A stretch of DNA of 64,000 nucleotides from Ligustrum vulgare (lineage: Eukaryota; Streptophyta; Magnoliopsida; Lamiales; Oleaceae), in assembly GCA_963555705.1 (NCBI GenBank), contig OY743181.1:23440513-23504512 (forward strand), given 5' to 3'. This document shows, in pieces, positions 1,816 to 59,979 of this stretch. The number at the start of each line of letters is the position of its first letter. The first letter of the stretch is position 1. Made by a program: the position numbers and the translations under genes. The notes under the pieces were generated by a model. The model did no database searches. It saw only the letters and a list, made by a program, of their open reading frames with translations, and had not been told where the DNA came from.

Positions 1816-1817
1816 AT

Positions 1818-1830
1818 TGGTATCAGAGCG
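1818..1830 (+). other. Primer-binding site, tRNA-iMet type
   Basis: TGGTATCAGAGCG begins two bases after the 5' LTR. This is the usual plant copia minus-strand priming site, complementary to the 3' end of initiator methionine tRNA. Confidence 0.9.
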
Positions 1831-4019
1831 TCAGGTTTTTGATACTGTTTTGTGTATTTAGTAATAAATAATTTTGTTATGCATGTGTTAGTTGAGCGGT
1901 GTTAGGATTATGTGATTTATGTTGTTATTAGATGGATGATGTTTGATTGAACTAATTTATGGCCTTAGATTTTATTTTGTAAAATCTTGTATTTGTATTA
2001 TCGAGTCTTGTAACAAAGGGGGTTGATTACGACTCCATGTTTTCCCCTTTGAATTTAAATTTTGCAATAAAATTTTGGTTTTTATTATTTCTATTGTAAT
2101 TGTAAAATCTGAAGGACCAGATCTTCCGTTTTAATTCTGAGGAGCTACTGATGCAATTTCAGAAGAAGGACCACTCTTCATCTTCTTCAAAGGCACAGGG
2201 ACCTGCAATGTAACTTTGCTAAAAATTTTGAAAATCAGCAGGGGCACCACTGGGTGCGGCTGATGCGGTCGAAGGTCGAAGGCGCTGCCGTCTTGTCTTG
2301 ACTGTGGTGCGGTGAAACCACTAATAGCTGCAAATGAGGAGCGCGACAACGTGGGTGTGCTGCAACCATACGCGTGAAGCAGTAGTGTTTTAAACTCTGA
2401 CGATGCGCGGTCGTGGCGGTGGGGCAGTACCATGGAGTCCGCTTTCTCGGTGATATTCAGTTTTCTCTCCAGTAGAACAAGTTTCGACAGTAGACCTATA
2501 TCGCTGCTGCGTTTCTGTAGATATCCCGTCGCCTGTGCGTGGCGAGGTTGCTATGCGGTGAAGGCGGCAGCAGCGGTGGTTCATGAAGCTGCTGTTGTGG
2601 CCGCAGTGGTTGCAGCATTTTCCGGTGATGGCGTTAATGAAGATGGCAACTTCGTTTCTTTTGAATTTTGCTAGGTTACTGCCATGCAATTTTCGAGAGG
2701 GAGATGGGTCCAATGGATTGGGCCAGTATTTGTGTTATCTTCAAGTTGGGCCAGATTCTGGTTTTGGACTAAAATGCTCAATATTCATTTGGGCCAGATT
2801 TTGATGAAATTAAATATGGCCCAGAAATTGTAAAATTGATCCATTTTTATTAATTGCAATGTGGGCTAAATTATTTAGCTGGGCCAATGCAATGTGGACT
2901 GAATTTTACAATGGGCTGGAATATTTAATTGGATCATTACATTTTGACATTTGGGTTGAAGACTGAAACTTTGCAGATTTGGAATGGACACTTGCAAATG
3001 GAAATTGAAGGATTGGGTCGGCTTGTGGCTCAATAGACTATTTAATTAATTTGTAATTTTTGTGTCTAGGTTTGGTCATAAATTATGTTCATATTTGTTT
3101 TATTATTGCATTTATTTATTTATTGCTTTAATAATTTGTGAATGGATGTCATTAAATAACATGTCATGTAGATCGCATAAACACCGCTCTAGGTACTATA
3201 CTCTCATGCATTGTTTTATATTTTATTTTCTTTTCTAAATGTTAGATTAGAAAATAAATATATTTATTAATAATTAAATTGGTTTTAAGAGTTAAAATTG
3301 ATTAGGTAATTGTTAATTAAAACCCAAGAGTTCAAAATATTAAGTGAGCGAGGGTGCAATTTTTGAACCCACGGCCTCCCCTATTAGTCCATTAGTAAAA
3401 ATTTGTGTATGCCTCGTGCTAATCTAATTAGTCTCCCTATAGGAGGGCTGCACTATTTTGGTTACTGGATTGGGCCCAATTATGTGATGATTTTTTAAGT
3501 GTGAATTAATCATGATTACCCTATAGGTGATATAATTAATTTGGTACTTGAAATATTATTAATACAGGGGTTAGACACTTAAATCAATGACATCGTGGGG
3601 ACTTCCTATAGAATATCCAAACGATGTCAATGATGGCCAAATTTTAACGACTATAAATTAAATATTGCATGAGATGCTAGATATATTTAATTTAGTGGGA
3701 GGGTCCCAGTCTAGCCATAAATCACATTTATTTCTCCTATAGAGAAATGTATTTAAGATTTTGGGGTTTTAGGTTGTCGTCATATTATAGTAGTTTTGGG
3801 TCTACTTGTGCATAATTTTTCTTCATGCATCATATATGAAAGTATTCATCATTTATGCAACTCGTGTTTAATACATTTATTTTATTTGAATGTCGTATTT
3901 CCACAACTAGTTATATGTTTAGACATCACCAACTAATTTGCGAAAACTGTAACATGTCTCGTTATAATTCTTTCCACTTATGACATTTGTTCGTGCTAGA
4001 AGATCCTTGTTAAAAAATA
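1831..4019 (+). other. Leader of copia A1, non-coding
   Basis: Long untranslated leader between the primer site and the gag remnant. Three zones can be seen. About 2130-2690 is GC-rich and differs strongly from the equivalent part of A2. About 2700-2940 contains repeated TGGGCC or GGCCCA motifs. About 3040-3860 is strongly conserved with A2 positions about 15480-16310. The last zone holds four hairpins with an identical CTATA loop (3404-3761). Open frames in the GC-rich block (for example 2432-2674) are not shared in translation with A2 and are not called as genes. Confidence 0.75.
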
Positions 4020-7000
4020 ATTATAAATCTTCCAATGAAAATGGTTTTATTTTGATGAGATGTTTTATTGGATAGTTTTGATTCTCACGTCAAGTACTTC
4101 GCAATAAAGACATCAAAATAGGGTACCATATTTATTTTCTCGATGGAAGAGTATTTATGATAATTTGAACATTTTAAATATGGAGTTATACAAAATATGC
4201 TATCAAGCTATAATATATCTCTACTTATGAACCAATCACGATTTTTACAAGAGACCATTTGGTAAAACATGATTGGTCACTTTAACCTGGTGGAGGTTCC
4301 ACTTGCAAACATTGATTCATGTGACATAATGCTTGAGAAATCTTTTAAGATGATCTCTTGCGGTTCAGTGTGGACTATATTCACCAGGATGAACATGTAC
4401 CTGAAAGGTTCAATGTAAGCTATTCATAGAGAAGAGATTATTTTAAAGCAACGGATAGTATGGTAGGCCTCTAACCTTTTTGCTTTTGAGCAAAGATAGG
4501 ATTAATGAGGAGGTAGCCTTCCTTGGAAACTCTATAATGGAGTCAGACTCTATTCATTGTGTTATGGTTAGTAATTGAGTCTATCTTGATTATAGATTCT
4601 AGAATAACTGATCACTATTGCAAGTTGTTGCAATATGGTCCTAGGTGACCAAATGATACAATGAGATAGAGTATACTATAAGGATAAGCACGGGTACGAT
4701 AATATGGAAAGAGCCGTTGGGCTTTTATGTTTGCGAAACAATTTGATTGTTATTTTGTCTCTTTATTATTTGAGCGAATTATTTGGCACTTAATCTACAG
4801 TTATTAGTTGGAATTAAGTTAAATAATGCTCTTATTATTGCAAGACAAATGTTTAACAATCTCAAAGCCTTGTAAATGGTTCTAAGTGTAATATTACTAC
4901 AAATGATAATGGATAGATGATTCCTTGTATTAATGAACTCTTTGATAAGATCTTAAGATAATCATATTTATCTAAATAAGATTGAAAGACTAGTAAAGAT
5001 AGCCTCTAATTATTTTGGAGGTGGAATCTATGTGGGCTTTTGAATTTTATTTAGAGGGTAAAATGATTAAGATCTTAGGCTTGGTTACACTTATCCAAAA
5101 CTCGATTCTAATACTAGTAAGGGATGGACCTCAAAAGGATCTGAGGTCGAATCTATATTTTTTTCTGAATCTTGTTTAGAGGATTAGATAACCAAGAGTC
5201 CTTATACATTAAATGGACTTAAGAGTTTGGGGATTAATACACTTCGATATGTGTGGATTCTTTGGTACTCAAGATATGAGAGAGTACGAGTAATTCCTCA
5301 CTTTTATTGATGATCACTCCACATCTCGATTCTATACTTAATATCTCATTGATCTGAAATGTTGAAGAATTTCTAGAATTTTGGTCAAAAGTTGAGAAGT
5401 AATTAAGAGAATCGAGATACTTCGATTTCATCGAGGTTTGTGTATCTCTATATGAGTTTAGGAACCATTTATCGGAAAGGAGAACAAGGTATTACCAAAT
5501 CAATAATGAGTTATCATCGTTACTAGTTTCATTTGGGAATGTGTACCGGAGATAGTCAGGTTCCTTCATAGCTTAGTACCATTGATTCGTTTCCTGAAAT
5601 ACCCCTAGAGTTGTGGCATAGGTGCAAGCCCAGTCTACACCACATTCAGATTTGGGGAATTTTGGCACACTAGCTGAAAGCAATGATTGACGAGATGTAG
5701 GCAACAATGAAGGTTTGATTATAAGGCATGCAGCGAAACTAGAAATTATTTCTTCTATAATCCTCTGGTCAAGAAAGTATTTGTTGAGTACAAATGTAGC
5801 TTTCTTAGAGGATAAAGCATATAGAAGAATACAAATCAACAAGTAATATTCTATTGCATGAGATGTTAGAACGTGGTTCAAACAACTTGATTCCAGATTT
5901 CCGCATAGAATTAATCTTGATGATTTGGAACTTCCTACGGAACCGATGGTTGCTGATCCTAGTGGGAGAATGGGCAAGTGGTTCAACCACTATTCTTGCC
6001 TGGTGATCCCAATGGACAGGGGAAAACCAAAGGTTGTAGTCGAAGTTGTTCTCACTGTTCTGTCTCTTCTTTATGTTCATAAAGAGGCAGTGAAGAGGTT
6101 GATCCCAATTAGGGATATACCAAGTAGTGGGAGAAGAGGAAGGGACTCTGTTTGGACATTATGGAAATACACTTCCAGCGACTAATTGGAGTGGGAGGGT
6201 TGTAAGACCACCTTCTTGACGCTTATTCTATGGAGAATCTTTTTAGATAGTCTCTACTGAAATAAGAGAAGAACTCCTCATTTAGGGAAGTGGTAGAAGT
6301 CATAGGCTTGAAATCATGGAAGGTGAATGTGAACTCGGAATTAGATTCCTAGTAATCCAACAAGTTTGGATATTTGTAGACGCACCCAATGGGGTCAAAC
6401 CTATAGGGTGTGATGATTTTTAAGATGATAAAAGAATGGTAGATGGAAAGGTTGATACCTTTAGTGCAAGGCTTATGGTTGTGGGTTTGTGAAACCCTTC
6501 TCGTCAATAGCCATGCAGAAGTTTACCTGGATCTTTTATCCATTGTCGTTCATTGTGAAAATGAGGTACAACAAATGGATGTCAAGATGTTGTTTCTTGA
6601 ATGCATCTTGAGGAAATCATTTACAAAGTGTAATCTGATGAGTTCATATTAAAGACCATGAAAGTAAAATTCATGACTTACAAGTTTCCAACTTTGGATT
6701 TGGGTAGTTGTTCAAGATATGGAATATAGAATTTGATAGAACCATTGTGATACATGTTCTTGATCAAAATCTTGATATATCTTAAGTATACTCGTGTATA
6801 CAGAAAGATGAGACAGTTTTTGCGACTATTGATTTGAATGACACTCTACTTATGTGTGAGAGTATTTTCATTAAATAGTAATTGGTACCAGCAATTAGAC
6901 TTGAAGGACTTGTAGATGACTGTCTATTTTTCTAGACATCCGTACTTTTCGGAGTGGGAGAAAAATGGAATAGAATATTCTCAAGTTTCATGTACCGTAC

Positions 7001-7580
7001 TTTTCGGAGTGGGAGAAAAATGGAATAGAATAGTCTCAAGTTTCATGTAATAATAAGATACTATCTACATTTGAAATATTGAAGTCTTGAAAGGAATAAT
7101 GTTCTTTGTGAACTTTATCTATCTTATGAGCATTCTCATAAGACTCATGGTAAGATAGAGAAGGTTCCTTATGCTCCGGCTATAGGAAGCCTTACTTTGC
7201 ACTAGATAGGTCATATCTTATGCTGGGGATATTGTTGGTAATTATTAGTCTGATCCAGGATCAGATCATTGAATAGAGGTAAAGCATATACTGAAGCGTT
7301 TTCGGAAAACGAGTAAATATTTGCTTATCTATTCAGTTTGTGATCTGATGGATTAAAACTAATTAAGATCCGATTTGACTAGGACTCTCGAGAGTCGTCA
7401 AAATTGGAATATAGTTTGGAGATAATGTGGTTAATTGATTGGGTATAACATAATCTTGGATTGTTTGTTATACAACCGTGACTTACATCGAAAGGAGTTA
7501 CTATCTTGGTTGAGGACATAATCATTAGTGTAATGATGGTGTTGACAAGATGGATGATTCGATGTTTCATGTATACTCTT
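4020..7580 (+). pseudogene. Decayed copia gag-pol
   Basis: No long reading frame survives, but nucleotide patches align in order with the intact gag-pol of A2. There is a gag patch near 4330, a protease patch near 4600 (equivalent to the DSG region of A2 at 17235), and integrase patches near 5220, 5470 and 5740. Reverse transcriptase follows near 6370-6640 (equivalent to 19008-19280) and RNase H near 7150-7320 (equivalent to 19785-19960). Stops and frameshifts occur throughout, so no protein product is expected. Order and spacing match the autonomous relative, indicating decay of a normal gag-pol rather than a foreign insert. Boundaries are approximate. Confidence 0.75.
6940..7049 (+). repeat. 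55-bp tandem duplication
   Basis: Two adjacent copies of a 55-bp unit (6940-6994 and 6995-7049) starting CCGTACTTTTCGGAGTGGG, differing at one base. The duplication lies in the decayed pol of copia A1. Confidence 0.9.
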
Positions 7581-7596
7581 AGGGCAAGTGGGAGAT
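7581..7596 (+). other. Polypurine tract of copia A1
   Basis: AGGGCAAGTGGGAGAT lies directly before the 3' LTR. It matches the tract of A2 at 20474-20488 and is the plus-strand primer site. Confidence 0.85.
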
Positions 7597-9009
7597 TGTT
7601 GGAATTATATATGCCCATAGAGTATAATTCACGACATTCGAAATAAAATGTTTATTGATTGTATTAATATAAAGTTGCGTTTGTCCACTGGTCGATTTGA
7701 TATTACAAATTGAGTGTTTAAGTTGTTAAACACAAAAAGATTCAATTTGTGATTTGATCTAAAATTAACGTTCACGATCAGCAAATAAATATAGACAATT
7801 TATTTTGATAAGATCGTCTCGATTTTATTAAAGTCTATCTTTGACTTTGGTAATAAAATTGAGAGTACGTTTGGAACGTATTGGACGGGACCACGTGAAA
7901 TTAATTTGTGACATTGACCATAATAATTTAATTTCACTTGATTATCGTACGTGGGACCTTAATCCTAATCGGATAATGGACTTCGATTACTAACTTGAAG
8001 TTCTTTGAGGTATTAATGGGTGAGATCAAATTGCTGACCAATATCTCGGTACTTTGGGAATTAAAGTGAACTAACGAGGAACATATATTCGTATTATGGA
8101 ATCCGTCACCTTTTAGGTATGATCATAATCTCATTGGTTCTTCTAGTGGATAATTGAATCTGAGCTCAGTAATTCGACAGTGACTGTTGAATTCTATGAT
8201 GTGATGGGATCACATAGAACTGTCAGATAGAAGATGAGAGTTGAGAATTTATGAATATTCAGAGAAGGGCATTTTGGTCATTGTAACTTGCTCCGAATAT
8301 TCGAGTTGATCGATGGGGGTAACATGTAAGAACGATAAGTCAGAGGATATAATTATTGATTAATTGTTTCAGTAATTTCAATTTTACTAAGAGTGCAATC
8401 AAATTCTTTTAGTGGAATAGAATGTGATTAATAAATTAATTTTGACTGATCAAGAGTTGATTGTGTCATAATTAATTTATTGGAGCTTAGTTTAATTGGG
8501 TCCGATTAGGTTCCCTCGGTGGCTTCACTATAATGAGTTTATACAGGCTTACTACCTGTATTGGGCTGTGCAGAAATGGACCTGGGTTATGGTACTAGGC
8601 CTGATAGGGTTTTTGGAATGTAAAGAGGTTACAAATAGTCTCCTAAGACTATTTTTCTTAACCTAATTGACAAAGTGGCGAGACAGACACTAAAGTGTGT
8701 AGTGTGTATTTTCTCTCTACAAAAAAATCCTAATCCTAATTTAACCTAAGTTTTGAAAAAAGTGACCACACACCTGCACAACTGCCATTGGAGAACACCG
8801 AGGAAAGCTTGAGGGTTTGAAGCTTTGGTGAAATCAAGAAGCAGCGAAAAGAGATTATTGTAAAGTACGCTACAAGGGTAATATCTCTTTCTTTTGTGTG
8901 CACAAAATTATTCATTCCAAGTTGAATACATAGAACAGAAAATCCTGTAACGGAATGATCTATCACAAGAAATTAATTTTTGTTAGTAGAACAACCCGGA
9001 TTCCCAACA
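7597..9009 (+). repeat. 3' LTR of copia A1
   Basis: 1413-bp direct repeat of 404-1815, ending CCCAACA and followed by the duplication ATAAA (9010-9014). I counted about 41 differences from the 5' LTR, mostly transitions. Confidence 0.93.
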
Positions 9010-9139
9010 ATAAAAACTAAGAAAACTACTCTCTTACCTCGATGACCTCTTCCCCCGACTTAGCAAGCCACATAAGTAAATCAGCTTTCTACTCACAAAC
9101 CAACACTAAATCATTGTCTTTTAAAAGTCAGCAAAGTTT

Positions 9140-12516: not shown

Positions 12517-13128
12517 ATGACTACCAGATGTGGGGTTCAGCTGAAAGAAGCCCAAGTTGAGAAATCTGATCATGTTGATAAGGAACAAAAGGAGGAGAGT
12601 TCAAATGAGAAAATTCAATCTGAAGAAAGGAAGAGGACAGCAGTGGAAGAAAAGAAAACAAGGCCACAACTAAAAGCTTACATTCCTCCTATCCCATATC
12701 CTCAAATGGAGAGAAAAGTCAATGAAGATCGTCAGTTTTCAAAGTTTCTAGAGATGTTGAAGAAGTTGCATATGAACATTCCCTTCATTGAAGTAATCAA
12801 GGAGATCCCGAGCTATTCAAGATTTTTACGAGAGTTGATGGCTAAAAATAAAAGACTTGAAGATTGCGAGACGGTGGCTTTGAATGAGGAGTGTAATGCA
12901 ATCCTTCAAAACAAACTACCTCCAAATCTAAAAGATCAAGGGAGTTTCTCAATTCTTTGTTTAATTGGTGATTCAGAATTCATAAAGTTTTATGTGATTT
13001 GGGATCTAACATTAACTTAATTCCTCTTTCTGTTTATAGGAAATTAAACTTGGGGAACCCAACACCAAACACCATCATGTTATAGCTAGCTAATAGATCA
13101 ATCAGGTACTCTTATGGGGTGATAGAGG
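12517..13128 (+). pseudogene. gypsy B1 gag-protease segment, 5' part
   Basis: An ATG-started frame reads MTTRCGVQL and then a basic linker. It continues with the conserved plant gypsy block before the protease (FSKFLEMLKKLHMNIPF, LNEECNAILQNKLPPNLKDQ, then SFSILCLIG). The usual catalytic Asp-Ser/Gly region downstream is frameshifted around 12990-13020. The frame is cut at 13128 by copia A2; the C-terminal part resumes at 21933. Confidence 0.75.
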
Positions 13129-14567
13129 TGTTGGAAAGTGTATGCCCGTCGAGTTAATTTATTTGTACTCGTGACGTTTTTTGGAATAAAATATTATCTT
13201 ATATATTTGATTATATTATTTTGAGCTTGCATTAATCCATAGATCGATTCGATATTACTAATTGAGTGTTTAAGTTGTTAAACACAGAAAGATTCAATTT
13301 GTAATTCGATCTAAAATTATTGTTCACGATCAGTAAAATAAATATGGATAATTTATTTTTGATCGTCTCGATTTCATTAAAATCTATCTTTGATTTTGAA
13401 AATGAAATTGAGAGTACATTTGATATGTATTGAACGGGACCACGTGAAATTAATTTGTGACATTGACCGTGCAAATTTAATTTCACTTGACTATCGTACA
13501 TGGAACCTTAATCCTAATCGGATAATGAACTTCGATTACTAACTTGAAGTTCTTTGATGTATCAATGGGTGAGATCAAATTGTTGGTCAATATCTCGGTA
13601 CTTTGGGAATTAAAGTAAAATAACGAGGAACATATATTCGTATTATGGAATCCGTCACCATTAGGTATGATCATGATCTCACTGGTTCTTCTAATGGACA
13701 GTTAAATCTGAGCTCAGTAATTCGACAATGATTGTTGGATTTTATGATGTGATGTGATCACATAGAACTGTCAGATAGAAGATGGGAGTCGAGAATTTAT
13801 GAATATTCAGATAAGGGTATATTGGTCGTTTAACCTTACTTCGAATATTCCAGTTGATCGACGGGGGTAACATGTAAGAGCGATAAGTCAGAGGATATAA
13901 TTATTGGTTATTGCTTCAGTAATTACAATTTTACTAAGAGTGCAATCTCGTTCTTTTAGTGGAATAGAACGTGATTAATAAATTATTTTGATTGGTCAAG
14001 AGTTGACTGGATCAGAATTAATTTATTGGAGCTTAGTTTAATTGAGTCCGATCAGGTTCCCTTGGTGGCTTCAATAAAACAGGCATATACAGGCTTATAA
14101 CTTGTATTGGGCCGTGCAGAAATGGGCCTGGGTTATAGTATTAGGGTTGGTAGGGTTTTAGAGGGTAAAGAAGTTATAAATAGTCTTCTAAGACTATTTT
14201 TCTTAACCTAATACACATGTGGGCGGGACACACACTAAAGTGTGAAGTGTGTGTTTTGTTCTCTTGATAAAAACCCTAACCCTAGTGTAACCAAAAGGTC
14301 AGAGAAAAGTGACCACACACTTGCATAGCCTCTGTTGAAGAACACCAAGGAAAACTTGAAGGTTTGGAGATTGGTGGAATCAAGATCTACACAGATAATT
14401 GTCAAAGCACGCTACAAGGGTAACGATTGCTAAATTATTATTTGTTCAAAATTATTTGATCTAGTCAAATACATAAAATGGCGAATTCCTATTATGGGAT
14501 GATCCAAATCACAAGAAATTAATTTTTGTGATTAGATATCCCGTTGCGTCAATTTTTTTTCCCAACA
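13129..14567 (+). repeat. 5' LTR of copia A2
   Basis: 1439 bp, TGTTGG...CCAACA. It carries two TGGGCC motifs (14108 and 14123), a TATA box at 14175-14182 and a telomere-like AAACCCTAACCCTA box at 14271-14284. The two small minus-strand open frames in it recur identically in the 3' LTR and are not genes. Confidence 0.97.
14175..14182 (+). promoter_or_regulatory. TATA box of copia A2 LTR
   Basis: TATAAATA lies 47-67 bp downstream of two TGGGCC (site II-like) motifs. The equivalent in the 3' LTR is 21535-21542. It probably marks the U3/R boundary about 30 bp downstream. Confidence 0.7.
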
Positions 14568-14568
14568 A

Positions 14569-14586
14569 TGGTATCAGAGCGCCAGG
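14569..14586 (+). other. Primer-binding site, tRNA-iMet type
   Basis: TGGTATCAGAGCGCCAGG begins one base after the LTR. It is a canonical initiator-methionine tRNA primer site. Confidence 0.93.
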
Positions 14587-16354
14587 TTTTTGATACTGTT
14601 TTATGTATTTAGGGTTAAATAATTTTGTTATGCATGTGTTAGTGGAGCGGTGTAGGTTTTATGTGATTTGATTTGTTATTGGTTGAATGATATTTTAATG
14701 AACTGATTTATGGCCTTAGATTGTTTGTTGTGAATTATGTATTTGTTTTATCGAGTCTTGTAACAAAAGGGGTGGATTACGACTCCATGTTTCCCTTTTG
14801 ATTTTGATTTATTGTAAAAAAATAGAATTAGAGTTAGTTTTTCTATTATATTTTGTTGTAATCAAAATCATGAGGACCGAATCATCACAACTGAAATTGG
14901 AGGACTTCTGCTGCAATACAAGAGCTGGACCAGTCTTCATCTTCTTCATTAACCGAGGGACCTTCTCTGCAATTTCACCAAAAATACACAAAACGCATCT
15001 GGAAGCATGGGAAGGGGAAGCAACGGCACTTTGGATACTGCCCTTCTGTCGGAGATCGATGGAAGCACCTTCAGTGCCGCGATCTCACCTTGAAGCGGCG
15101 ACATCGGGGCTGCAGTGCCGCTGCGTTTCGTAGTCGCGCGCCATGCGTGGCGCGGCTATGCGTGGCGTGGCTGCGCTGGAATGGTGTCGCGACGGCGCAT
15201 GTTGACTCCCTTCTGGCGACTGAGGTCTCTTCCGACGGTGGTGTGGTCTCCAGTGGCGGCTGAATTCAGATCGAAAGGAAGGACACCGGCTGTGTAGAAA
15301 CAGGAAGCAGAGATTCAGTATTTGGGCTGTAATTTCAGTTGGGCCTTGCTTTCTTCTTGGGCCGGCCGGTTAGACTGAATTAAAAATTGCAGATTGGACC
15401 ATTTTGAAGTCGGGCCAGATAATTATTATTTGAAGAGTTCGAGTAATGGGCTGGACACTTGCAAATGGAAATTGAAGAATTGGGCCGGGTTGTGGCTCAA
15501 TGTAATCTTTAATTAATTTGTAATTTTGTGTCTAGGTTTTGGCCATAAATCATGTTCTAGTTTATTTTATTATTGCATTTATTTATTGCTTTAATTAAAT
15601 TGTGGATGAATGTCATTTGATAACATGTCATGTAGATCGCATTAACACCGCTCTAGGAACTATACTGTCATGCATAGTTTTATATTTTATTTTCTTTTCT
15701 AAATGTTAGATTAGAAAATAATTTTGATAATTATTAAATTGATTTTAAAAGTTAAAATTGATTATTTAATTATTAAATGAAAACCCAATAGTTTAAAAAT
15801 ATTAAGTGAGTGAGGGTGCAAATTTTTGAACCCACGGCCTCCCTTGTTAGCCCATTAGTAAAAATTTGTGCATGCCTCGTACTAATTTATTTAGTCTCCC
15901 TATAGGAGGGCTGCACTGTTTTGGTTACTGGTTTGGGCCCAATTAGGTGATGATTTATTTAAGTTTGAATTAATCATGATTACCCTATAGGTAACGTAAT
16001 TAATTTGGTACTTGAAAAATTATCAATATAAGGGTTGAACACTTAAATCAAAGACATCGTGGGGACTTCCTATAGAATATCCAAACGATGTCAATGATGG
16101 CCAAATTTTAACGACAATAAAATTAATATTGCATGAGATGCTAGATATATTAATTTTAATGGGAGGGTCTCAACCTAGCCATAAATCTCATTTATTTCTC
16201 CTATAGAGAAATGTGTTTAAGATTTTGGGGTTTTAGGATGTCGTCATATTATAGTAGTTTTGGGTCTACTTGTGCATTATTTTACATTCATGCATCATAT
16301 ATGAAATCATTGAATGCATAGCTCATTTTCTTTATTTTATTTTATTTCAGAAAA
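14587..16354 (+). other. Leader of copia A2, non-coding
   Basis: Long untranslated leader. About 14990-15300 is a GC-rich block with a repeated ATGCGTGGCGYGGCT motif (near 15141-15170). About 15320-15500 carries six TGGGCC/TGGGCT-like motifs. About 15480-16310 is conserved with copia A1 and contains the four CTATA-loop hairpins. The final bases, TTTATTTCAG then AAAAATG, resemble a 3' splice site five bases before the gag start. Open frames in the GC-rich block (14798-15133, 15115-15297) have no counterpart in A1 and are not called genes. Confidence 0.8.
15868..16225 (+). promoter_or_regulatory. Four-hairpin CTATA-loop leader structure (predicted)
   Basis: Four inverted repeats share the apical loop CTATA but have different inner stems: CTCC/GGAG (loop 15900-15904), TTACC/GGTAA (15985-15989), TTC/GAA (16070-16074) and ATTTCTC/GAGAAAT (16201-16205). 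Each also has an outer stem: GTGCA/TGCAC (15868, 15912), AATTAAT/ATTAATT (15968, 15999), GACATCGT/ACGATGTC (16053, 16085) and AAATCT/AGATTT (16183, 16220). All four recur in copia A1 (3404-3761) at nearly the same spacing. The position, just upstream of gag, suggests a genomic-RNA packaging, dimerisation or translation signal. The role is inference; the repeats are directly visible. Confidence 0.6.
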
Positions 16355-19300
16355 ATGTCTGGAAATTCACTGTCCATTATCTTAACTAAAAATCAACTGG
16401 TTGGAGAAAATTTTATTGATTGGAAACGTAATTTGATGATTGTTCTCACCGCCGAGAAGCATAAATTTGTGCTAACTGAACCCCGTCCCAATGCACCGAC
16501 TCGGACTTCCACACCTGAACAGAAGGCCGCATATGAGAAGTGGATCCATTCTGATGAGATGGCCCGCTGCTACATTTTGGGTTCTATCTCAAATGTGTTG
16601 CAGCAGAAACATCAGAATATGGAAACTGCTGCTCTGGTTATGGAGAGCCTTCAGCAAATGTTCGAACATCAAGGTCGTCAGGCCCGTCAGGCTGCTATTA
16701 GGTCTATTATGAACATGCGCATGAAACCTGGAACACCCGTTAGAGATCATATGCTTGCATTGATTGGTCAGTTTAACGTGGCTGAGGTTTTGGGGGCTGA
16801 AATCAATTCGGAGACGCAGGTTGACATGGCTTTGGAGACTCTCCCAGAGATGTTCTCTCAGTTCAAAGTTAGTTATAACATGAACAAGCTGGATATGTCA
16901 CTGACTGAGTTGATGCAGGAGCTTCAAAATGCTGAGACTGTTCTTAAGACCAGGGCCAATGATGTGTTGACTGTTGCTTCTGTTGGACCATCCTCTTCCA
17001 AGCCGAAAGGCAAAGGAGGCAACAAGAGGAAGAAGTCTAACAAGAAGGGACCACAGCAGCAGGTCAAGAAAGCAAAGACAGAAGGCAAGCCAAAGGGGAA
17101 ATGCTTTCATTGTGGACAGAAAGGTCATTGGAAGAGGAACTGCCAGGGATACCTAGCTTCCAAAAGGCAAGGTAATGGTGAGTTATCTTATATTGAGTCT
17201 TGTTTAGTGGTTGATTCTACATATACTTGGATAGTAGATTCTGGAGCCACTAATCATGTTTGCAATTCATTGCAGGGGTTCCAAGTAACCAAGCAACTCA
17301 GTGAAGGGGAGCATACTTTAAGGGTTGGCACAGGAGCAGTGGTTTCTGCGAGAGCTGTTGGAGTAGTTTATCTTTATTTTAATAATAAACATTTGGTTTT
17401 GAATAATTGTTATTATGTTCCGGATATTACCCGAAATTTGATTTCGGTTGCATTACTTTTTAAACATGGTTATTCTGTTTATTTCACTTGTTTGATGGTG
17501 AAAATTGTTATGAATAAAGTTTTAATTTGTGAGGGACATATGCTTAACAATTTGTATACTTTGAAACCTGCCGATAGCTCTCTATATCACATTGCATCTA
17601 ACAAACGCATTAAGTTATCTCCTACTAATGAGACTTATTTATGGCACCTGAGACTTGGTCATGTTAACCTAAATAGGATTCAAAGACTTGTAAGGGATGG
17701 TCTTTTGAGTGACTTAAAAGTGGAATCCCTACCAATTTGCGAATCCTGTCTGGAAGGAAAAATGACCAAGAGACCTTTTACTTCAAAGGGGTATAGGGCC
17801 AAAGAAGTCTTGGAATTAGTACACTCTGATGTATGTGGACCCATTAATGTCCAAGCTAGAGGTGGGTATGAGTACTTCGTCACCTTCACTGATGATTACT
17901 CTAGATATGGTTATGTTTACCTAATGGCACGCAAGTCTGAAGCTTTTGAAAGGTTCAAAGAATTCAGGACTGAAGCGGAGAAGCAATTAGGTAAGAACAT
18001 TAAAACACTTCGATCAGATCGATGTGGAGAATATCTATCCCATGACTTTAGGTCATATCTATCAGAAAATGGGATTGTATCCCAATTAAGTGCACCAGGT
18101 ACTCCCCAACAGAATGGTGTATCTGAAAGGAGAAACAGGACCTTGTTGGACATGGTCAGATCAATGCTAGGCTTCTCAACTCTCACAACATCTTTTTGGG
18201 GATATGCTCTACAAACTGCAATATACTTGCTTAACATGGTTCCATCTAAATCTGTCCCTAAGACACCCCTGGAATTGTGGAATGGGCGAAAGCCTAATCT
18301 GGCACATATACGGATATGGGGATGTCCTGCACACGTGCTTAAGGGAAAGGTGGAAAAGATGGAATCAAGATCACAAGTATGCATTTTTGTAGGATATCCA
18401 AAGGGAACAAGAGGATATTACTTCTATAGTCCTCAAGATAAGAAAGTTTTTGTGAGTACAAATGCAACTTTCTTAGAGGACAAGTATATAGAAGAACGTG
18501 AATCAAAGAGCAAGGTTCTTTTGGAAGAGATGAAGGGAAAGGTTCCCAGTTCATCAACCCCAGTAATCCGCATTGAACCTACTCAGGATGAATTCACGTC
18601 CCCACCAGTTACGGTACCTGAATTCAGTGGGAGACAAGTGGAGGTTATACCTTCCATGTCTGCTGGATCACTGACACGTAACTTGGAGGAGGAACAAGTT
18701 CCCATTGCATCACCACTTGGTATTGAAATTGGAAACGAGGGACTTGATACCAGAGAGCCGGTGGTAGAACAAATACAAATTCCAATCAACCAGGAGCCTC
18801 CTCAGCATAGACGAAGTGAGAGAGTCATTAGACCACCCTCCAGATACTTGCTCTATGGAGAGTCTTTCGAGGCAGTCTCCACTGAACAAGAGGAGGATCC
18901 TACTTCGTATAAAGAAGCTGTGAAGGATGTAGACGCTGACCATTGGAGGAGTGCCATGGACTCAGAAATGAAATCCATGTACACTAACTCTGTCTGGGAT
19001 CTTGTAGATGTACCTAATGGGGTAAAACCCATAGGATGCAAATGGGTCTACAAGAGAAAAAGAGGGGTAGACGGAAAGGTAGAGACCTTTAAAGCTAGAC
19101 TGGTCGCTAAGGGTTTCACCCAAAGAGAAGGTATCGATTATGAGGAAACCTTCTCACCTGTGGCCATGCTTAAGTCTATTCGGATCCTCTTATCCATTGC
19201 AGCTCATTTTGATTATGAGGTGTGGCAAATGGACGTCAAGACAGCATTCCTTAATGGAAATCTTGACGAAAGCATCTATATGATGCAACCAGACGGTTAT

Positions 19301-20473
19301 ACCCAAAAGGGTCAAGAGCATAAAGTATGCAAACTGCGTAGGTCTATTTATGGACTTAAGCAGGCGTCTAGGTCCTGGAATATCAGATTTGATCAAGCTG
19401 TAAAAGGTTATGGTTTTGATCAGAATCTTGATGAGCCTTGTGTTTATAAGAAAATTAAAGAAAACAAGGTGATTTTTCTCATACTGTATGTAGATGACAT
19501 CCTGCTCATTGGGAATGATGTAGGAGCATTAACATCGGTTAAAAACTGGTTGGCGCAACAGTTTGATATGAAGGACTTGGGAGAAGCCAATTATGTTCTA
19601 GGAATCCAGATCCTTCGGGATAGGAAGAACAGGAGAATTGCGCTATCTCAAGCTTCATATATAGACAAGATTGTGGTGAGGTTCGCTATGCAAAATTCCA
19701 AGAAAGGTCAAACGCCTTTCAGACATGGAATTCACTTGTCACGGGAGCATTGTCCTAAGACTCCTAGTGAAATGGAACACATGAAACAGGTTCCTTATGC
19801 TTCGGCTGTAGGAAGTCTTATGTATGCTATGCTATGTACTCGCCCAGATATCTGTTATGCTGTTGGAATTGTCAGTAGATATCAGTCAAATCCTGGACCA
19901 GAGCATTGGACTGCTGTAAAGCATATACTCAAGTATCTTCGCAGAACTCGAGATTATATGCTGGTTTACTCAGCTCCAGATTTGGTGCCAACGGGTTACA
20001 CTGATTCTGATTTTCAAGCTGATAAGGACTCCCGAAAATCCACATCTGGATCAGTGTTCACACTGGGTGGTGGTGCCGTTGTTTGGAGGAGTATCAAGCA
20101 ATCATGCATTGCTGATTCCACCATGGAGGCAGAATATGTGGCAGCTTGTGAAGCAGCCAAAGAGGCAGTATGGTTGAAGAAATTCTTACTGGACCTTGAG
20201 GTGGTTCCATCTGCATCTCAGGCCATTACTCTATACTGTGATAACAGTGGAGCAGTGGCGAATGCAAAAGAGCCCCGCAGCCATCAGCGTGGAAAACACA
20301 TTGAGCGTAAATACCACTTGGTTAGAGAAATCGTTCAACGAGGAGATGTGACAGTGTGCAAGATAGCATCAGCAGAAAATCTTGCAGACCCTTTTACCAA
20401 AAGCTTACCAGCTAAAAGTTTTGAGGGTCATATTGAAAATATGGGTGTACTTAACATGTCTCATTTACTCTAG
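16355..20473 (+). CDS. Copia Gag-Pol polyprotein, intact
   Basis: Single 1372-codon frame starting ATG at 16355, the first in-frame ATG after the conserved leader. Domains in order: UBN2-type Gag (about 1-240); zinc knuckle CFHCGQKGHWKRNC (250-263); aspartic protease with WIVDSGATNHVC (Asp295); and integrase zinc-binding HHCC (His431, His436, Cys462, Cys465). The integrase core has Asp492, Asp555 and Glu591, giving the expected 35-residue D-E gap. Reverse transcriptase has YVDD at 1045-1048. RNase H has Asp1217 in YTDSDF and Glu1258 in STMEAEY. Length and order are normal for Ty1/copia. One oddity is the integrase motif LRSDRCGEY, where the family nearly always has Gly in place of the Cys at 557. 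It should form cytoplasmic virus-like particles, copy its RNA to DNA and integrate it. All main catalytic residues are present, so activity is plausible but unproven. Confidence 0.96.
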   Translation: MSGNSLSIILTKNQLVGENFIDWKRNLMIVLTAEKHKFVLTEPRPNAPTRTSTPEQKAAYEKWIHSDEMARCYILGSISNVLQQKHQNMETAALVMESLQQMFEHQGRQARQAAIRSIMNMRMKPGTPVRDHMLALIGQFNVAEVLGAEINSETQVDMALETLPEMFSQFKVSYNMNKLDMSLTELMQELQNAETVLKTRANDVLTVASVGPSSSKPKGKGGNKRKKSNKKGPQQQVKKAKTEGKPKGKCFHCGQKGHWKRNCQGYLASKRQGNGELSYIESCLVVDSTYTWIVDSGATNHVCNSLQGFQVTKQLSEGEHTLRVGTGAVVSARAVGVVYLYFNNKHLVLNNCYYVPDITRNLISVALLFKHGYSVYFTCLMVKIVMNKVLICEGHMLNNLYTLKPADSSLYHIASNKRIKLSPTNETYLWHLRLGHVNLNRIQRLVRDGLLSDLKVESLPICESCLEGKMTKRPFTSKGYRAKEVLELVHSDVCGPINVQARGGYEYFVTFTDDYSRYGYVYLMARKSEAFERFKEFRTEAEKQLGKNIKTLRSDRCGEYLSHDFRSYLSENGIVSQLSAPGTPQQNGVSERRNRTLLDMVRSMLGFSTLTTSFWGYALQTAIYLLNMVPSKSVPKTPLELWNGRKPNLAHIRIWGCPAHVLKGKVEKMESRSQVCIFVGYPKGTRGYYFYSPQDKKVFVSTNATFLEDKYIEERESKSKVLLEEMKGKVPSSSTPVIRIEPTQDEFTSPPVTVPEFSGRQVEVIPSMSAGSLTRNLEEEQVPIASPLGIEIGNEGLDTREPVVEQIQIPINQEPPQHRRSERVIRPPSRYLLYGESFEAVSTEQEEDPTSYKEAVKDVDADHWRSAMDSEMKSMYTNSVWDLVDVPNGVKPIGCKWVYKRKRGVDGKVETFKARLVAKGFTQREGIDYEETFSPVAMLKSIRILLSIAAHFDYEVWQMDVKTAFLNGNLDESIYMMQPDGYTQKGQEHKVCKLRRSIYGLKQASRSWNIRFDQAVKGYGFDQNLDEPCVYKKIKENKVIFLILYVDDILLIGNDVGALTSVKNWLAQQFDMKDLGEANYVLGIQILRDRKNRRIALSQASYIDKIVVRFAMQNSKKGQTPFRHGIHLSREHCPKTPSEMEHMKQVPYASAVGSLMYAMLCTRPDICYAVGIVSRYQSNPGPEHWTAVKHILKYLRRTRDYMLVYSAPDLVPTGYTDSDFQADKDSRKSTSGSVFTLGGGAVVWRSIKQSCIADSTMEAEYVAACEAAKEAVWLKKFLLDLEVVPSASQAITLYCDNSGAVANAKEPRSHQRGKHIERKYHLVREIVQRGDVTVCKIASAENLADPFTKSLPAKSFEGHIENMGVLNMSHLL

Positions 20474-20488
20474 GGCAAGTGGGAGAAT
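20474..20488 (+). other. Polypurine tract of copia A2
   Basis: GGCAAGTGGGAGAAT lies directly between the gag-pol stop (TAG, 20471-20473) and the 3' LTR. Confidence 0.9.
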
Positions 20489-21927
20489 TGTTGGAAAGTG
20501 TATGCCCGTCGAGTTAATTTATTTGTACTCGTGACGTTTTTTGGAATAAAATATTATCTTATATATTTGATTATATTATTTTGAGCTTGCATTAATCCAT
20601 AGATCGATTCGATATTACTAATTGAGTGTTTAAGTTGTTAAACACAGAAAGATTCAATTTGTAATTCGATCTAAAATTATTGTTCACGATCAGTAAAATA
20701 AATATGGATAATTTATTTTTGATCGTCTCGATTTCATTAAAATCTATCTTTGATTTTGAAAATGAAATTGAGAGTACATTTGATATGTATTGAACGGGAC
20801 CACGTGAAATTAATTTGTGACATTGACCGTGCAAATTTAATTTCACTTGACTATCGTACATGGAACCTTAATCCTAATCGGATAATGAACTTCGATTACT
20901 AACTTGAAGTTCTTTGATGTATCAATGGGTGAGATCAAATTGTTGGTCAATATCTCGGTACTTTGGGAATTAAAGTAAAATAACGAGGAACATATATTCG
21001 TATTATGGAATCCGTCACCATTAGGTATGATCATGATCTCACTGGTTCTTCTAATGGACAGTTAAATCTGAGCTCAGTAATTCGACAATGATTGTTGGAT
21101 TTTATGATGTGATGTGATCACATAGAACTGTCAGATAGAAGATGGGAGTCGAGAATTTATGAATATTCAGATAAGGGTATATTGGTCGTTTAACCTTACT
21201 TCGAATATTCCAGTTGATCGACGGGGGTAACATGTAAGAGCGATAAGTCAGAGGATATAATTATTGGTTATTGCTTCAGTAATTACAATTTTACTAAGAG
21301 TGCAATCTCGTTCTTTTAGTGGAATAGAACGTGATTAATAAATTATTTTGATTGGTCAAGAGTTGACTGGATCAGAATTAATTTATTGGAGCTTAGTTTA
21401 ATTGAGTCCGATCAGGTTCCCTTGGTGGCTTCAATAAAACAGGCATATACAGGCTTATAACTTGTATTGGGCCGTGCAGAAATGGGCCTGGGTTATAGTA
21501 TTAGGGTTGGTAGGGTTTTAGAGGGTAAAGAAGTTATAAATAGTCTTCTAAGACTATTTTTCTTAACCTAATACACATGTGGGCGGGACACACACTAAAG
21601 TGTGAAGTGTGTGTTTTGTTCTCTTGATAAAAACCCTAACCCTAGTGTAACCAAAAGGTCAGAGAAAAGTGACCACACACTTGCATAGCCTCTGTTGAAG
21701 AACACCAAGGAAAACTTGAAGGTTTGGAGATTGGTGGAATCAAGATCTACACAGATAATTGTCAAAGCACGCTACAAGGGTAACGATTGCTAAATTATTA
21801 TTTGTTCAAAATTATTTGATCTAGTCAAATACATAAAACGGCGAATTCCTATTATGGGATGATCCAAATCACAAGAAATTAATTTTTGTGATTAGATATC
21901 CCGTTGCGTCAATTTTTTTTCCCAACA
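20489..21927 (+). repeat. 3' LTR of copia A2
   Basis: 1439 bp, identical by eye to 13129-14567 except C at 21839. It ends CCCAACA and is followed by the duplication AGAGG. Confidence 0.97.
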
Positions 21928-21932
21928 AGAGG

Positions 21933-22282
21933 ATGTGCTAGTTGAAACTAAAAAGATTGTGTTTCCTGCAGATTTCGTGGTCTTAGATATGGAAGAGGAC
22001 GAGAGGATGCCATTGATTCTAGGGAGGCCATTCCTAATAACTTCTATGGCGTTGATTGATGTTGAGAAGAGGGAGGTCATATATAGAATGGAGAAAGATA
22101 AGGTTACTTTTGACCTCGCACGAATGGAGAACAATGATCCCAATCTTGAGAATTGCTCAAAGATTGAAGTGGACTCCATTTTGGAGGACAAAGGGAAGCA
22201 AAAACAAGGGGCCTCAGGGTGTATGAAGAACAAGTCCGAAAAGGGAGAAATTATCTTGACTCCAACCCATGAGCCACCTTGA
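21933..22282 (+). pseudogene. gypsy B1 protease C-terminal part
   Basis: The frame continues the B1 protease after the copia A2 insertion and one copy of its duplication. It reads [20 protein letters not shown] then GRPFL and [10 protein letters not shown], the conserved end of plant gypsy retropepsin. A charged tail runs to TGA at 22280-22282. In complete relatives reverse transcriptase would follow; here non-coding sequence does. Confidence 0.82.
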
Positions 22283-25164
22283 AGATCTCTAACAAAAGTC
22301 GAGCTTTAGACTTTAAATGGAGCGCTTGTTGGGAGGCAACCCAACCCGTATCCTTTTATTATCTATTTATGCTTAATTTTATGTTTTACGCGTAAGTTAG
22401 GATTTATATGCTTTAGTAGTGTTTTTGTTGATATCATTGAGTTTTGCTTTTGCCCTTCATCTTTGTTTCATATTAAAAAGTTACCATGAGCATGTTCTTT
22501 ATGTTAAGTATGTTGACATCAATGCCATCATAAGTATCTAGCCTTAGAAGTTAAAACATAATATGTTGCATGAAAACCTATTCATTCCATAGCATTAGTT
22601 GGTTTACGTTGCATGCTAGAATTTGGTGGTTAAGTCATAAACTCATGCATGGAGCCTTAGTTCAAAGTAGGAAGCAAAGTTAGGCGAGTGAGCCTATTGA
22701 AGACAAGATGTTTTGGGGTTAGGAATTGGAGTTGAAATTCAAAATTGACATAAAAATCTCTTTCAGCCGGAGAACCCCACTGTAGTGTCATTGCACCTTG
22801 TTGGCCGCTTGTTGTCTTTTAAAATAATAAATCACCTAAGTTGCATTTTTTACACATGGAATTGAGCACTACACATACATACATCACATCTCAATTTTCA
22901 AAAGGTATGAATTTCTCCTTTACTTTACAATTTTGAAAATCTTGGGGGTTTTCTTAGTTTTCTTGAGATTTGAAATTCATGGATTGTTGTGTTATGAAAG
23001 GCTAGAATGTTGTGTTCATTGGATTGTCAAACTTAGGTTTAAAATATTTTTTTGGATAACTTCATGTTTCAAACTCCATGATTTCTACTTGTTTTGTTTT
23101 GTTTTGTTTCGTGCACACTATGTGTTTGATAAAATGTCTAAGTAAGACTTTCATCACATTATTGGAAATTCCTTTGAACAACATTCATCACTTCATATTG
23201 AACATTAATTATGCACCATTCCACAACCCTTATGCACTTTAGATGACCTAAATCTTTGATGTGTTATAGACCACACTACATACTTTCATGTTTCCGAGTT
23301 CCGAATATGGATAGGAAAAATTTCAACTTTTCATAGCAATGTCGGGGGCTGAACAAGGAGTACTTTGACCACTTTCAAAACAAATTCAGATTTAAGTTTT
23401 GCTTTAGTTTGGGGGTTGTAGATATGGTTTCCTATATTTCCTTTCAAATTTGAAGCTTCTAATGTACTTGTTTCACTTTTTCGAGTTACATATAATTGGG
23501 ACACATAAAAAGCAAAAACAATGGAACATACTTGAATCATCCAAGTTGATATTTAAGAAGAAGCTCCAAATTGAAAATTTTACATCCACAAACCCGAGAA
23601 GCACTTTTGCCCCTCGTTATTTTTATGTTGTTTCAATCATCATGTCTTCATGACATATATTGAGGCCAATGTACAGTTCTAGTTTGGGGGTGAAATCTAT
23701 TTCATGTTAAATGCTTCATGTGTTTCATTTGTTAATATGCTTCTTTTGCTTCACTTACATTCTTTTAATTGGGAAATTTTATTTGAAAAAAATAAAAAAT
23801 AATAATTTGAAAATTTTGAAAATTGTGTTGACATGTTTATTACCCAAGATATATTATTCATCAATTTTTGCTTTGGCTTGAATAATTGAATAACATCAAA
23901 AACTTGAATTTTATTCACTGGTCATGACATGCTTGATTTCATCTTATTGCGTACATAGCCATTGTTGAATTATAACTTGTGTAGGGATGTTTTTAATACT
24001 TGTGGGGTAAGTTTATGCTATTTAAACTTAGGAATGACTTGAAAATCCCTAAAATTAGAACATAAAGCATCCCATCCCTAACTTAGAACCAAACGGTTCA
24101 AAAGCAAGTTTGGGGGTAGAATGGTTAAGAGGTGCATGTTTCGATAGGTGGGAGATTTGTGATTCTCGGTTTTGCACTTTTGTTAAAATAGTTTGGTCAA
24201 CGGGTATAAATCATAACCAGCATAAAAACAAAAAAATGTTGAAGATCTTATTCTACTCTTCAAATGTCTTTTTAACTCGAGAAAGTAAGCTTGTAAGGGT
24301 GTTGAAACCTGGTACCCTAAACTCAACTGAGTTGGGAGCCATCAGTCCAAAGCTCATTACAGGGGTCAATTAGAAAGTAAGTAAGGAGAGTGGACTTACA
24401 CATAAGTCAAACATACATCTTTAACTTTTCTTTATTTCTTTTGTGACTCGGGTAATTAAGTCTGAGGGGTTCTTTGAACCTGGTGCTCTTAAATAGTATG
24501 GCTTGGGAGCTCCAAACCCAAAACTCGCTACAAGGATCATATAGAAAACAAATGAGAAAAATATTGCACAAAGATGATAAAAGACAGGAATATTAAAATG
24601 AAAAAGTCGTCCATAAAGAGAGAAATTGTTAAGTATAAGCTTTGTTGAATGTAACTGTGGAGATTGATGTTGTAAAATTGGGGATTGCTCACTTTTGACT
24701 TGTTGTGCATGCATACTTCTGATTCTAACTGTCTTGTATGGAAAAAGCAATGAAAGATATTTGAGAAACCACCATAGAAGGAATATGGGATTTGAGAGAA
24801 AAGCAGTAAGTTGTGATCTTCCATGAGCGATGAGAGAAAAATCTATAGAACTTCATAGGTTGACCATGTGGGATTCGGGCTTCATTTTGCATATTAAACT
24901 ACACAATGTTAAGTATATTTTTGCATGACTAAGCATTCGACATTGGCTATTCACACACACACTTGAAAATTTAGCATGACTTGACTAAAGCAATTTGTAC
25001 TTCGTTGTTCAAAACTCTTTGCCAAAGATGTGAGTTTATTTGTATTATTGAGGCCTATGGTGAACACGTTGAAGCAACAAAAACATTTGACATTTTCTAG
25101 TTTTATTTAGTAGTTTATTTTTGCATTGTTTGAGGACGAACAATAATTCTAGTTTGAGGATATT
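22283..25164 (+). other. Conserved 3' non-coding region of gypsy B1
   Basis: 2.9 kb without supported genes. It starts with the block GGAGCGCTTGTTGGGAGGCA, followed by ACCCAA, which also occurs inverted in B2 near 43890-43910. It carries polypurine-like AGTTTGGGGGT motifs near 23405, 23678 and 24108, and the real tract (degraded to TTTGAGGATAT) just before the LTR. Two related modules near 24308-24365 and 24479-24540 (CCTGGTACC ... TTGGGAG ... CCAAA ... CTC) are also present in B2. Small open frames here are not conserved. Confidence 0.75.
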
Positions 25165-27850: not shown

Positions 27851-28481
27851 TGTTAGAGCAATTGGACCAGTAGAATCTTTGAAGCCCAAAAGCCAGAAGG
27901 CCCAGCCGGAATAAGAAGCCCAAAATTCACGTCTACTGATTGAGCCCAATGCCAAAGCTTTAATACTGGTCTCCAATCAAATACTGAAGCCCAACCACAT
28001 TTCGAATCTATTGGCCCAACACTAGACCATCCCTTCAGTCTAAGATGTTGGATCGTCACAAACACATCTGAACCGTCCATTTTAGGGATAAAGACACATT
28101 ACACCTGTTGATTTTCTTATTCTAGATTTTTCTGATTTCTCTCTTTATCTCTCTAGCTATTCGCCTTCTTCGTGGTTTCTTTGAGACAAATCTCATCTCT
28201 CGTACAAATTCTTCATAGTTTATTCTCTGATTCTGTGTGTATATCAGAGATTTATACTTAGTGGTTATATGACAGAATTGATCTGTAATCTTTGTGGTTT
28301 CTTAGTGGTATTTTTGTGTGAGTTACTATTTTTGTAATATTTCTGAGTTGTTGTGTTTGATTTTGTAAAACCTTCACTTTTTTGTACTTTAATCTTGTTT
28401 TGAATAAAGTCTTTAAATTTTTAAGTTTTTGAACAAACTCGGTGGTATCTTTGTGGTGATTCTGAACCTGTAATCGTAACA
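27851..28481 (+). repeat. 5' LTR of copia C
   Basis: 631 bp. The first 170 bases contain six GCCCA motifs (near 27884, 27900, 27918, 27944, 27989 and 28014); five are kept in the 3' LTR. Confidence 0.9.
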
Positions 28482-28482
28482 G

Positions 28483-28495
28483 TGATATCAGAGCC
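28483..28495 (+). other. Primer-binding site of copia C
   Basis: TGATATCAGAGCC follows the LTR. It matches the tRNA-iMet site TGGTATCAGAGC with one change. Confidence 0.8.
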
Positions 28496-29478
28496 TTAGG
28501 GTTCCTGTGATTTTTCACTGATTTACGACTCAGAACTTGTGGATCTGGTGTTATCTGGAAGACTCTTTGGGGGTTTCTCTCAAAAATAATTTTAGGGTTT
28601 TCAATTTCTTTGTGGTCCTTTAAGAAACTAGTGATTTCTTGAATATATTCTAAAAACCCATTCTGAAACATTTTTGTTTTCTGAAAATCTTTTTGAAATT
28701 TTTCTGATTTGAAGGATTCTTCAAAATTACTTTAAATAATCTTCGTGGTATTTTTCTTTGTGGGAATTTCTTGAAACCAAAATAAGGGTTTGGTATGTTT
28801 TGGTGTCTGGATTTTGATCTCTGAGTCAAAATCAAAAGATCTATAGATTTCAGTATATTTTTAAAATATATTGAAAATCCTTAGAAGGGATCTGACATTC
28901 CTTGGTGACTGAACTTTGTGGATACTGATTAAACTTTGTGGTATTGGAACTTGGTGGTATTGAATCTTTGTGGAATTAAAGCCTTGTGGAACTGCAGTAA
29001 CCCTAATTTGAAAAGGGTGATATCTTTACATATTGCACTTAAGTACTATTAATTATTTTTTCAAATTTTTCGTTCTCTCCAAAATCTCTCTGTTCTTGAA
29101 GCCTATTCTTGGACCCCTTCACTTACCTTTGTACAGGATTCCTTGAGAATTCGGGGAATCTGAGGGAGTTTTGGGCTAACCCAAAGTAGGATGAGGGATA
29201 TACTAGAAGAACATTTTTATTTATAGTACTTACTAATTCTTTGTGGTTTTCATGCCGTGTGATTATACTTTGTGGATTGTGATCACCTTAATTGCTAGTG
29301 CCTGATATTTGTACAGTGTGACATACTATATATTTTTACTTAGTGGACTGCCTTTGTTATTTGCAATACTTTGAGAAACTATTCTGCATTCCTCTGCAAT
29401 ATTTGCTGAATATTTTTGTAGCAATAAGGCTTCTGGTTCTTGTAAAAAGTTTTTCAAAATTATCTGGACATTATTTCA
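28496..29478 (+). other. Leader of copia C
   Basis: About 1 kb, T-rich, with many TTTGTGG motifs. No supported coding region on the plus strand, and the minus-strand open frames at 28258-28835 are low-complexity shadows of this T-rich sequence. Confidence 0.65.
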
Positions 29479-33622: not shown

Positions 33623-33673
33623 TACTACCATATGTATTTTTGTAGGAGAAGTTGTTCCAATTGAGGTGGAGAT

Positions 33674-59915: not shown

Positions 59916-59976
<61 letters not shown>
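59915..59976. repeat. (TA)n microsatellite
   Basis: About 31 uninterrupted TA dinucleotides beside the copia F LTR end. Confidence 0.95.

Positions 59977-59979
<3 letters not shown>

Follow-up and report, generated by a model that had tools for sequence, protein, structure and literature searches.

Two related Ty1/copia retrotransposons, A1 and A2, lie in the 64-kb stretch of Ligustrum vulgare DNA analyzed here (the window), and the untranslated leader of each presents the loop CTATA four times, on hairpins whose stems are mutually unrelated. A1 is an amplified non-autonomous family, dead in its coding region, that carries the array. The quartet is probably a multi-copy RNA ligand, putatively for Gag and specific to each family. 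The constant loop on variable stems and its folding as RNA, both advanced in the earlier note from the A2 leader, are upheld by computation, with a repeated ligand as the best reading, and that reading is strengthened because a family without proteins retains the quartet and because two relatives have other hairpin arrays.

A2 is a young and intact element, with LTRs that are 99.93% identical and run from TG to CA, a primer site that is taken to be of the initiator Met tRNA type, and a 5-bp target-site duplication, AGAGG, read from the sequence on both sides. As expected of Ty1/copia elements, the integrase precedes the RVT_2 reverse transcriptase in a single frame, which contains gag (51-197), rve (486-584) and RVT_2 (878-1122) domains as well as a CCHC zinc knuckle in Gag (22.0 bits against a cut-off of 20.8). 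The best named relatives of its gag include proteins from Paulownia, Primulina, Rehmannia and Henckelia, genera of the Lamiales. Between 14419 and 16351, a donor-like AAGG|GTAA occurs in U5, the same as in A1, and an acceptor-like TTTATTTCAG ends 4 nt upstream of the gag ATG.

Table 1. Features of elements A1 and A2, in window coordinates
Feature	Position	Strand	Remarks
Element A1, non-autonomous relative of A2	404-9011	+	
A1 LTRs	404-1817 and 7597-9011	+	97.1% identical to each other
A1 CCTATAG quartet	3436-3742	+	loops 3437, 3521, 3606, 3737; absent from the earlier note
Element A2, young intact Ty1/copia	13129-21928	+	
A2 5' LTR (TGTTGG...CCCAACA)	13129..14568	+	end by BLAST; 14567 by eye
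A2 primer-binding site TGGTATCAGAGC	14569..14580	+	directly after the LTR
A2 untranslated leader	14569..16354	+	1786 nt, 41 upstream ATGs
A2 hairpin 1	15868..15916	+	loop CTATA 15900-15904; fold z -2.53
A2 hairpin 2 (long stem)	15948..16025	+	loop CTATA 15985-15989; fold z -4.47
A2 hairpin 3	16053..16092	+	loop CTATA 16070-16074; fold z -4.67
A2 hairpin 5	16115..16161	+	without CTATA; absent from the earlier note
A2 hairpin 4	16183..16225	+	loop CTATA 16201-16205; fold z -2.64
A2 gag-pol, intact reading frame	16355..20473	+	1372 aa
A2 3' LTR	20489-21928	+	

The A2 quartet lies beyond the LTR, near the end of the leader; it falls within the final 490 nt and is 1.3 kb away from the primer site (Table 1). 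The four hairpins reported earlier are found exactly where they had been placed, with all CTATA loops closed by a C-G pair and starting 85, 85 and 131 nt apart, with inner Watson-Crick stems of 4, 5, 3 and 7 bp, and with the outer stems that had been listed. The reported excess of the heptamer CCTATAG, which had been put at about 0.02 expected occurrences, also holds, as four are present in the 380-nt leader stretch against 0.017 expected. On both strands of the window, CCTATAG has 20 matches against 4.27 expected, and 12 of these fall in the A1 and A2 leaders (four sites each, two per leader matching on both strands). Four hairpins with a common 5-nt loop (stem of at least 3 bp) did not arise in any of 20,000 dinucleotide shuffles, 18 of which gave three, nor did four same-loop hairpins arise in 3,000 shuffles when loops of 4-8 nt were allowed. 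In a scan of the 64 kb that took the best 450-nt group for each loop and strand, the A1 and A2 leaders were, among the groups listed, the only places with at least four same-loop hairpins on four different arms. The remaining groups listed come from a tandem repeat with units of about 105 bp (37342-38147), from a long palindromic (AT)n run (59914-59979) and from a CGGCCG group with three members. A search of Rfam 15 with window positions 13000-23500 and with the leader-bearing relative L001, described below, gave no match at E up to 1.

In predicted folds, the loops are presented as the hairpins suggest. The minimum-energy fold of 391 nt of A2 leaves all four CTATA loops open and is more stable than any of 100 shuffles (z -4.29); the hairpin stretch of A1 gives z -3.64, with none of 100 shuffles as stable, and a 915-nt fold gives z -5.82, with none of 20 as stable. 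When the whole leader is folded, the 20 CUAUA loop positions are unpaired with probabilities of 0.74-1.00 in A2 (leader mean 0.34) and 0.77-1.00 in A1 (leader mean 0.33), while the closing C-G pairs form with probabilities of 0.68-0.99. Structured RNA, as computed, therefore lies between primer site and gag, and it is retained in non-autonomous copies.

The second element of the window, A1, presents its four loops with gaps of 84, 85 and 131 nt, although its LTRs share only about 84% identity with those of A2 (1345 nt aligned). Stops interrupt all three forward frames of its internal region (129, 129 and 152), where the longest open run is 107 codons; pieces of the A2 protein match it only as fragments (24-60% identity), and the coding DNA of the two elements can be aligned over a single stretch of about 278 columns (69%). 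Searches of the 1.38-Gb genome yielded at least 40 scored matches among 1126 candidates with the A1 leader, and at least 40 among 918 with the dead coding region, the window's own copy being included in each. In the 1500 nt downstream of the hairpins, no stop-free run exceeds 111 codons in any of the 30 A1-type copies fetched, whereas the same 1500 nt are fully open (500 codons) in all eight A2-type copies fetched; each set includes the window's own copy. All 29 other A1-type loci match the dead region, 26 of them unbroken across about 1500 nt. A1 is hence represented by many similar copies without working coding, its LTRs and primer site being known from the window copy.

Because A1 has multiplied without working genes, it must have been copied in trans, and A2-like elements, which share its LTRs and leader, are presumably its helper. 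In these coding-dead copies translation cannot maintain the array, so its presence throughout an amplified family favors a signal for replication or packaging in cis over a translation element. A signal retained by a family without proteins should act in cis in transcription, packaging or reverse transcription, and the hairpins, kept as they are by a relative that is copied with help, probably serve as a recognition tag for the element's own RNA.

The leader is unevenly shared between the two elements. Across the 700 nt that include the hairpins (15569 to 16268), identity between A1 and A2 is 0.88-0.94 in 100-nt bins, and the CCTATAG heptamers contain no difference at all. At 14969 to 15368 identity is 0.51-0.53; this middle part (2149-2748 in A1) is unrelated between the two, and few of the 29 A1 copies align there, despite dead coding that is about 95% identical.

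The earlier note had held that its structural reading would fail if family copies kept their primary sequence without compensatory changes, and on this point the outcome is divided. Between A1 and A2, pairing is kept: of the pairs in the A2 structure, 6 are broken by the 38 substitutions where 14.8 would be expected (P=0.0001), and 3 are changed on both sides against 0.64 expected (P=0.02). On the A1 structure, 9 pairs are broken against 16.4 expected (P=0.0026), with two double changes (P=0.11), and with confident A2 pairs only, 5 are broken against 11.6 expected (P=0.004), again with two double changes (P=0.09). Two of the double changes are clean compensatory pairs in hairpin 5 and the third lies outside all five hairpins; within the four CTATA hairpins, the changes are one-sided and three pairs are broken. 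Among copies of both types, 46 distinct rows were obtained from 60, and 95.8-99.9% of cells are paired across the five hairpins; 58 of the loci had been chosen by hairpin similarity, which biases heptamer variation low. In these rows, pair 15871/15913 of hairpin 1 is CG in 20, UG in 22 and UA in 3. In A1-type copies chosen by dead coding, pair 3594/3623 of hairpin 3 changes from CG to UA in a single copy. Double-sided change in the CTATA hairpins is thus scarce, with only the hairpin 1 pair showing it in more than one copy. The comparison of the two types provides good evidence of constraint. Within the A1 family, shared variants do not significantly avoid breaking pairs (15 among 28 copies chosen by dead coding against 17.8 at random, P=0.21), and the same applies to singletons (31 against 35.9, P=0.12).

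All four heptamers are intact in 25 of 28 A2-type copies (8 + 20 copies, from the 40 matches listed) and in 19 of the 28 A1-type copies that span the hairpins, the latter set having been chosen by dead coding (30 fetched of at least 40, less the window's own, leaving 29). Differing cells in the A1 copies number 9/784 in the heptamers, 392/9723 in the other hairpin stretch and 1483/28786 in the dead coding. The nine heptamer differences are all private, and counted as events they occur at a rate similar to that found elsewhere (9 per 28 sites, compared with 140 per 348 in the rest of the stretch and 378 per 1000 in dead coding); random sets of four 7-mers reach equally few differing cells with P=0.10. 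Shared variants, which are taken as marking change during propagation, number 0/28 in the heptamers, 46/348 in the other hairpin stretch and 191/1400 in dead coding, and four random 7-mers lack them with P=0.05-0.065. The hairpin stretch diverges by 3.7%, less than the 5.1% of dead coding at 4801-5800 (19 of 28 copies lower, P=0.001) but not clearly less than the adjacent 3901-4300 (4.3%, P=0.19). The A1 leader just upstream of the hairpins (2949-3348), which had no part in choosing the copies compared, shows 6.1% divergence against 4.0% for dead coding, and this speaks against constraint in that stretch. An apparent retention of the hairpin stretch in the A1 family (98% against about 95% downstream) was set aside, as those matches had been chosen by the same stretch. 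Overall, evidence of constraint within the A1 family appears weak, because the heptamer, shared-variant and pair-breaking tests gave weak or negative outcomes.

Relatives of A2 with hairpin arrays of other kinds were encountered in bacterial records, which are best understood as holding plant DNA. L001, a contig of 7.6 kb from a Streptomyces assembly, presumably plant contamination, was alone confirmed among 63 candidates; its copia element shares 54% identity with A2 in gag and 73% in RT. In its leader, a 27-nt motif occurs four times (1755, 1849, 1920 and 2154) and folds as CCAUC-CCUUC-GGUGG (first copy CCACC-CUUC-GGUGG) above a constant GG/A internal loop. The outer stems vary, with 94.7% of cells paired against 41-61% when slid; three pairs carry double changes, with 10 of 500 shuffles equally good, but the slid control at -3 likewise has three such pairs, the rows number only four, and copies 1-3 of the motif are near-duplicates across 62 nt. 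A likeness of the L001 and A2 leaders around the hairpin that precedes the array was noted by visual comparison only, and BLAST gave nothing significant.

Two further relatives, L002 and L003, are 99.4% identical, recorded as Streptomycetaceae plasmids, and their RT is 76.9% identical to that of A2. The U3 of L003 contains, at 3932-4303, an array of 12 strong AT-rich hairpins, and in 7 of the 12 the loop contains GAG, on six different arms; 1000 shuffles of 550 nt of this U3 gave on average 0.39 strong hairpins and at most 3, and the fold has z -10.7. The same loop group is present in L002. The sequence of L002 stops short of the primer site and that of L003 extends about 290 nt past it, so that the near-gag leader falls outside both. 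No loop is common to three or more strong hairpins in the A1 or A2 LTRs or at the 3' end of L001, which argues that the U3 array of L003 is not general. Same-loop hairpins thus appear to recur in all of these three related families, with a different loop in each and at two locations in the RNA, as judged from a small sample found by chance.

With about an even chance of being right, the quartet is a cis-acting element of the genomic RNA whose multimeric partner, most likely the element's own Gag, gathers that RNA for packaging. If the hairpins fold in the cell as predicted, they would present C-CUAUA-G four times on unrelated stems in the genomic RNA, and a multimeric partner, most likely Gag through its zinc-knuckle part, would recognize the loops and gather the RNA for packaging. 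A1, which retains the array, would then depend for its copying on proteins supplied from outside, presumably by elements like A2. Four identical loops would suit a multimeric protein, and Gag, which has a zinc knuckle, is the evident candidate for it. A wider proposal, rather doubtful and put forward tentatively, is that copia families of this clade tag their RNA by family-specific loop arrays, each read by its own Gag, the loops being CUAUA in A1 and A2, CCUUC with the GG/A bulge in L001, and GAG in the U3 of L003.

The main rival is dimerization, in which CTATA loops would kiss and thereby link two genomes. CUAUAG and UAUA are palindromic, so that any loop can pair with any on a second RNA, and the loops are open in the folds. 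A kissing contact of 4 bp of A-U is weak, however, and the loops of the relatives (CCUUC in L001 and GAG in L003) are not self-complementary, so that kissing would not explain the shared architecture. Dimerization is therefore considered unlikely, although Ty1 RNA has been modeled, in the part of the source available, to dimerize via kissing loops and palindromes (PMC5454406).

Somewhat less probable still is a role in translation, splicing or export, whereby the leader would let ribosomes pass upstream ATGs, control the removal of an intron or recruit export factors. Upstream ATGs are indeed numerous (45 in the L001 leader, besides the 41 of A2), a CAG stands just before the ATG in L001 as the acceptor-like TTTATTTCAG does by A2 gag, and a donor-like AAG|GTATGG is present in the U5 of L001 and L003. 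Yet the fetched A1 copies retain the array without a working frame, and the splice sites are consensus matches only. Given the acceptor-like CAG before gag, the donor-like U5 sites and the 41 upstream ATGs, a putative leader intron of A2 is possible; its excision would strip primer site and hairpins from the translated RNA and might leave the array in genomic RNA only. As for export, a plant pararetrovirus is described, in the portion of the review available, as using a structured leader for this purpose (PMC12786077).

The recognized object could also be DNA, with CCTATAGG-type inverted repeats serving as protein-binding or cruciform-prone sites and the RNA fold being secondary. Two cores are perfect in this sense (CCTATAGG at 15899 and 15984), but only these two of the four are 8-bp palindromes, the long imperfect stems with G-U pairs suit RNA better, and the site lies downstream of the LTR and the presumed promoter, all of which makes this explanation improbable. 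That the array has no function, being left over from an ancient internal duplication or made up of chance repeats that a young family has taken with it, fits the A1-family hairpin stretch, which has shared variants as often as dead coding and whose pairing is not significantly kept, but is the least probable reading of all, since duplication does not explain stems that are mutually unrelated, loops, spacing and pairing are kept between A1 and A2 though their LTRs differ by about 16%, and relatives have other arrays.

A packaging ligand of this kind would have partial counterparts in known systems. In retroviruses, the Psi/DIS region likewise places more than one hairpin between the primer site and gag, and some of these hairpins bind Gag or kiss; A1 and A2 differ in showing one pentaloop four times, on unrelated stems 85-131 nt apart. 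In barley, a relative of the Ty1/copia element BARE1, BARE2, is unable to make Gag and is packaged in trans, and it is said to keep packaging and dimerization signals (PMC3735527). The pair resembles A2 and A1 in uniting a Ty1/copia element with a defective relative, as far as the available part of that paper goes, but the BARE relative lacks Gag whereas A1 has no working coding that could be found, parasitism has been demonstrated for BARE and is deduced for A1, and repeated same-loop hairpins, present in A1 and A2, are not described in that part of the text (PMC3735527). In yeast, Ty1 requires structured 5' RNA for packaging and has hairpin loops that act between RNAs, according to the available part of the report; the likeness lies in structured RNA near the 5' end and in hairpin loops, and the difference in a pseudoknot and different loops as opposed to four same-loop hairpins in a long non-coding leader (PMC5454406). 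For RNA viruses, several short degenerate packaging signals per RNA have been proposed in the section available (PMC6475782), while the array of A1 and A2 is confined to one leader and its loop is exact.

The means by which plant retrotransposons select their own RNA for packaging are little known. Among titles and the beginnings of abstracts in the open literature, no same-loop hairpin array in a plant copia leader was found, which is not a claim of absence from print, and a review of 2025 speaks of transcript pools and, in its available part, names no such RNA signal for plant elements (PMC12786077). A loop that recurs four times without change on unrelated stems, and that an abundant family without proteins has kept, is a short candidate ligand that can be tested. 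If other families use other loops, the co-evolution of Gag and loop and the tracking of hosts by parasites become direct questions, and the wider proposal, if true, would mean that each family addresses its RNA by a code of its own, which parasites have to imitate.

Searches for further relatives covered several kinds of record. With copia gag and RT, viral contigs gave no confirmed relative, and two exact patterns likewise gave none; the phage search gave no RT match. The plasmid search gave no gag match but an RT match in four records, at 77% in two of them; the other two (H3 and H4) are L004 and L005. A loop scan of L004 listed groups with between three and six members, most of them AT-rich or confined to one arm, with a three-member TTGAAAA group as the exception. 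The window also includes a more distant copia element (27851-34289), in which same-loop hairpins do not form any group of three or more. Its leader, at 28480-29479, contains CTTTGTGG seven times in 1000 nt; for the 7-mer, CTTTGTG, shuffles give 0.2 expected, and CTTTGTGG occurs 12 times on the plus strand of the window.
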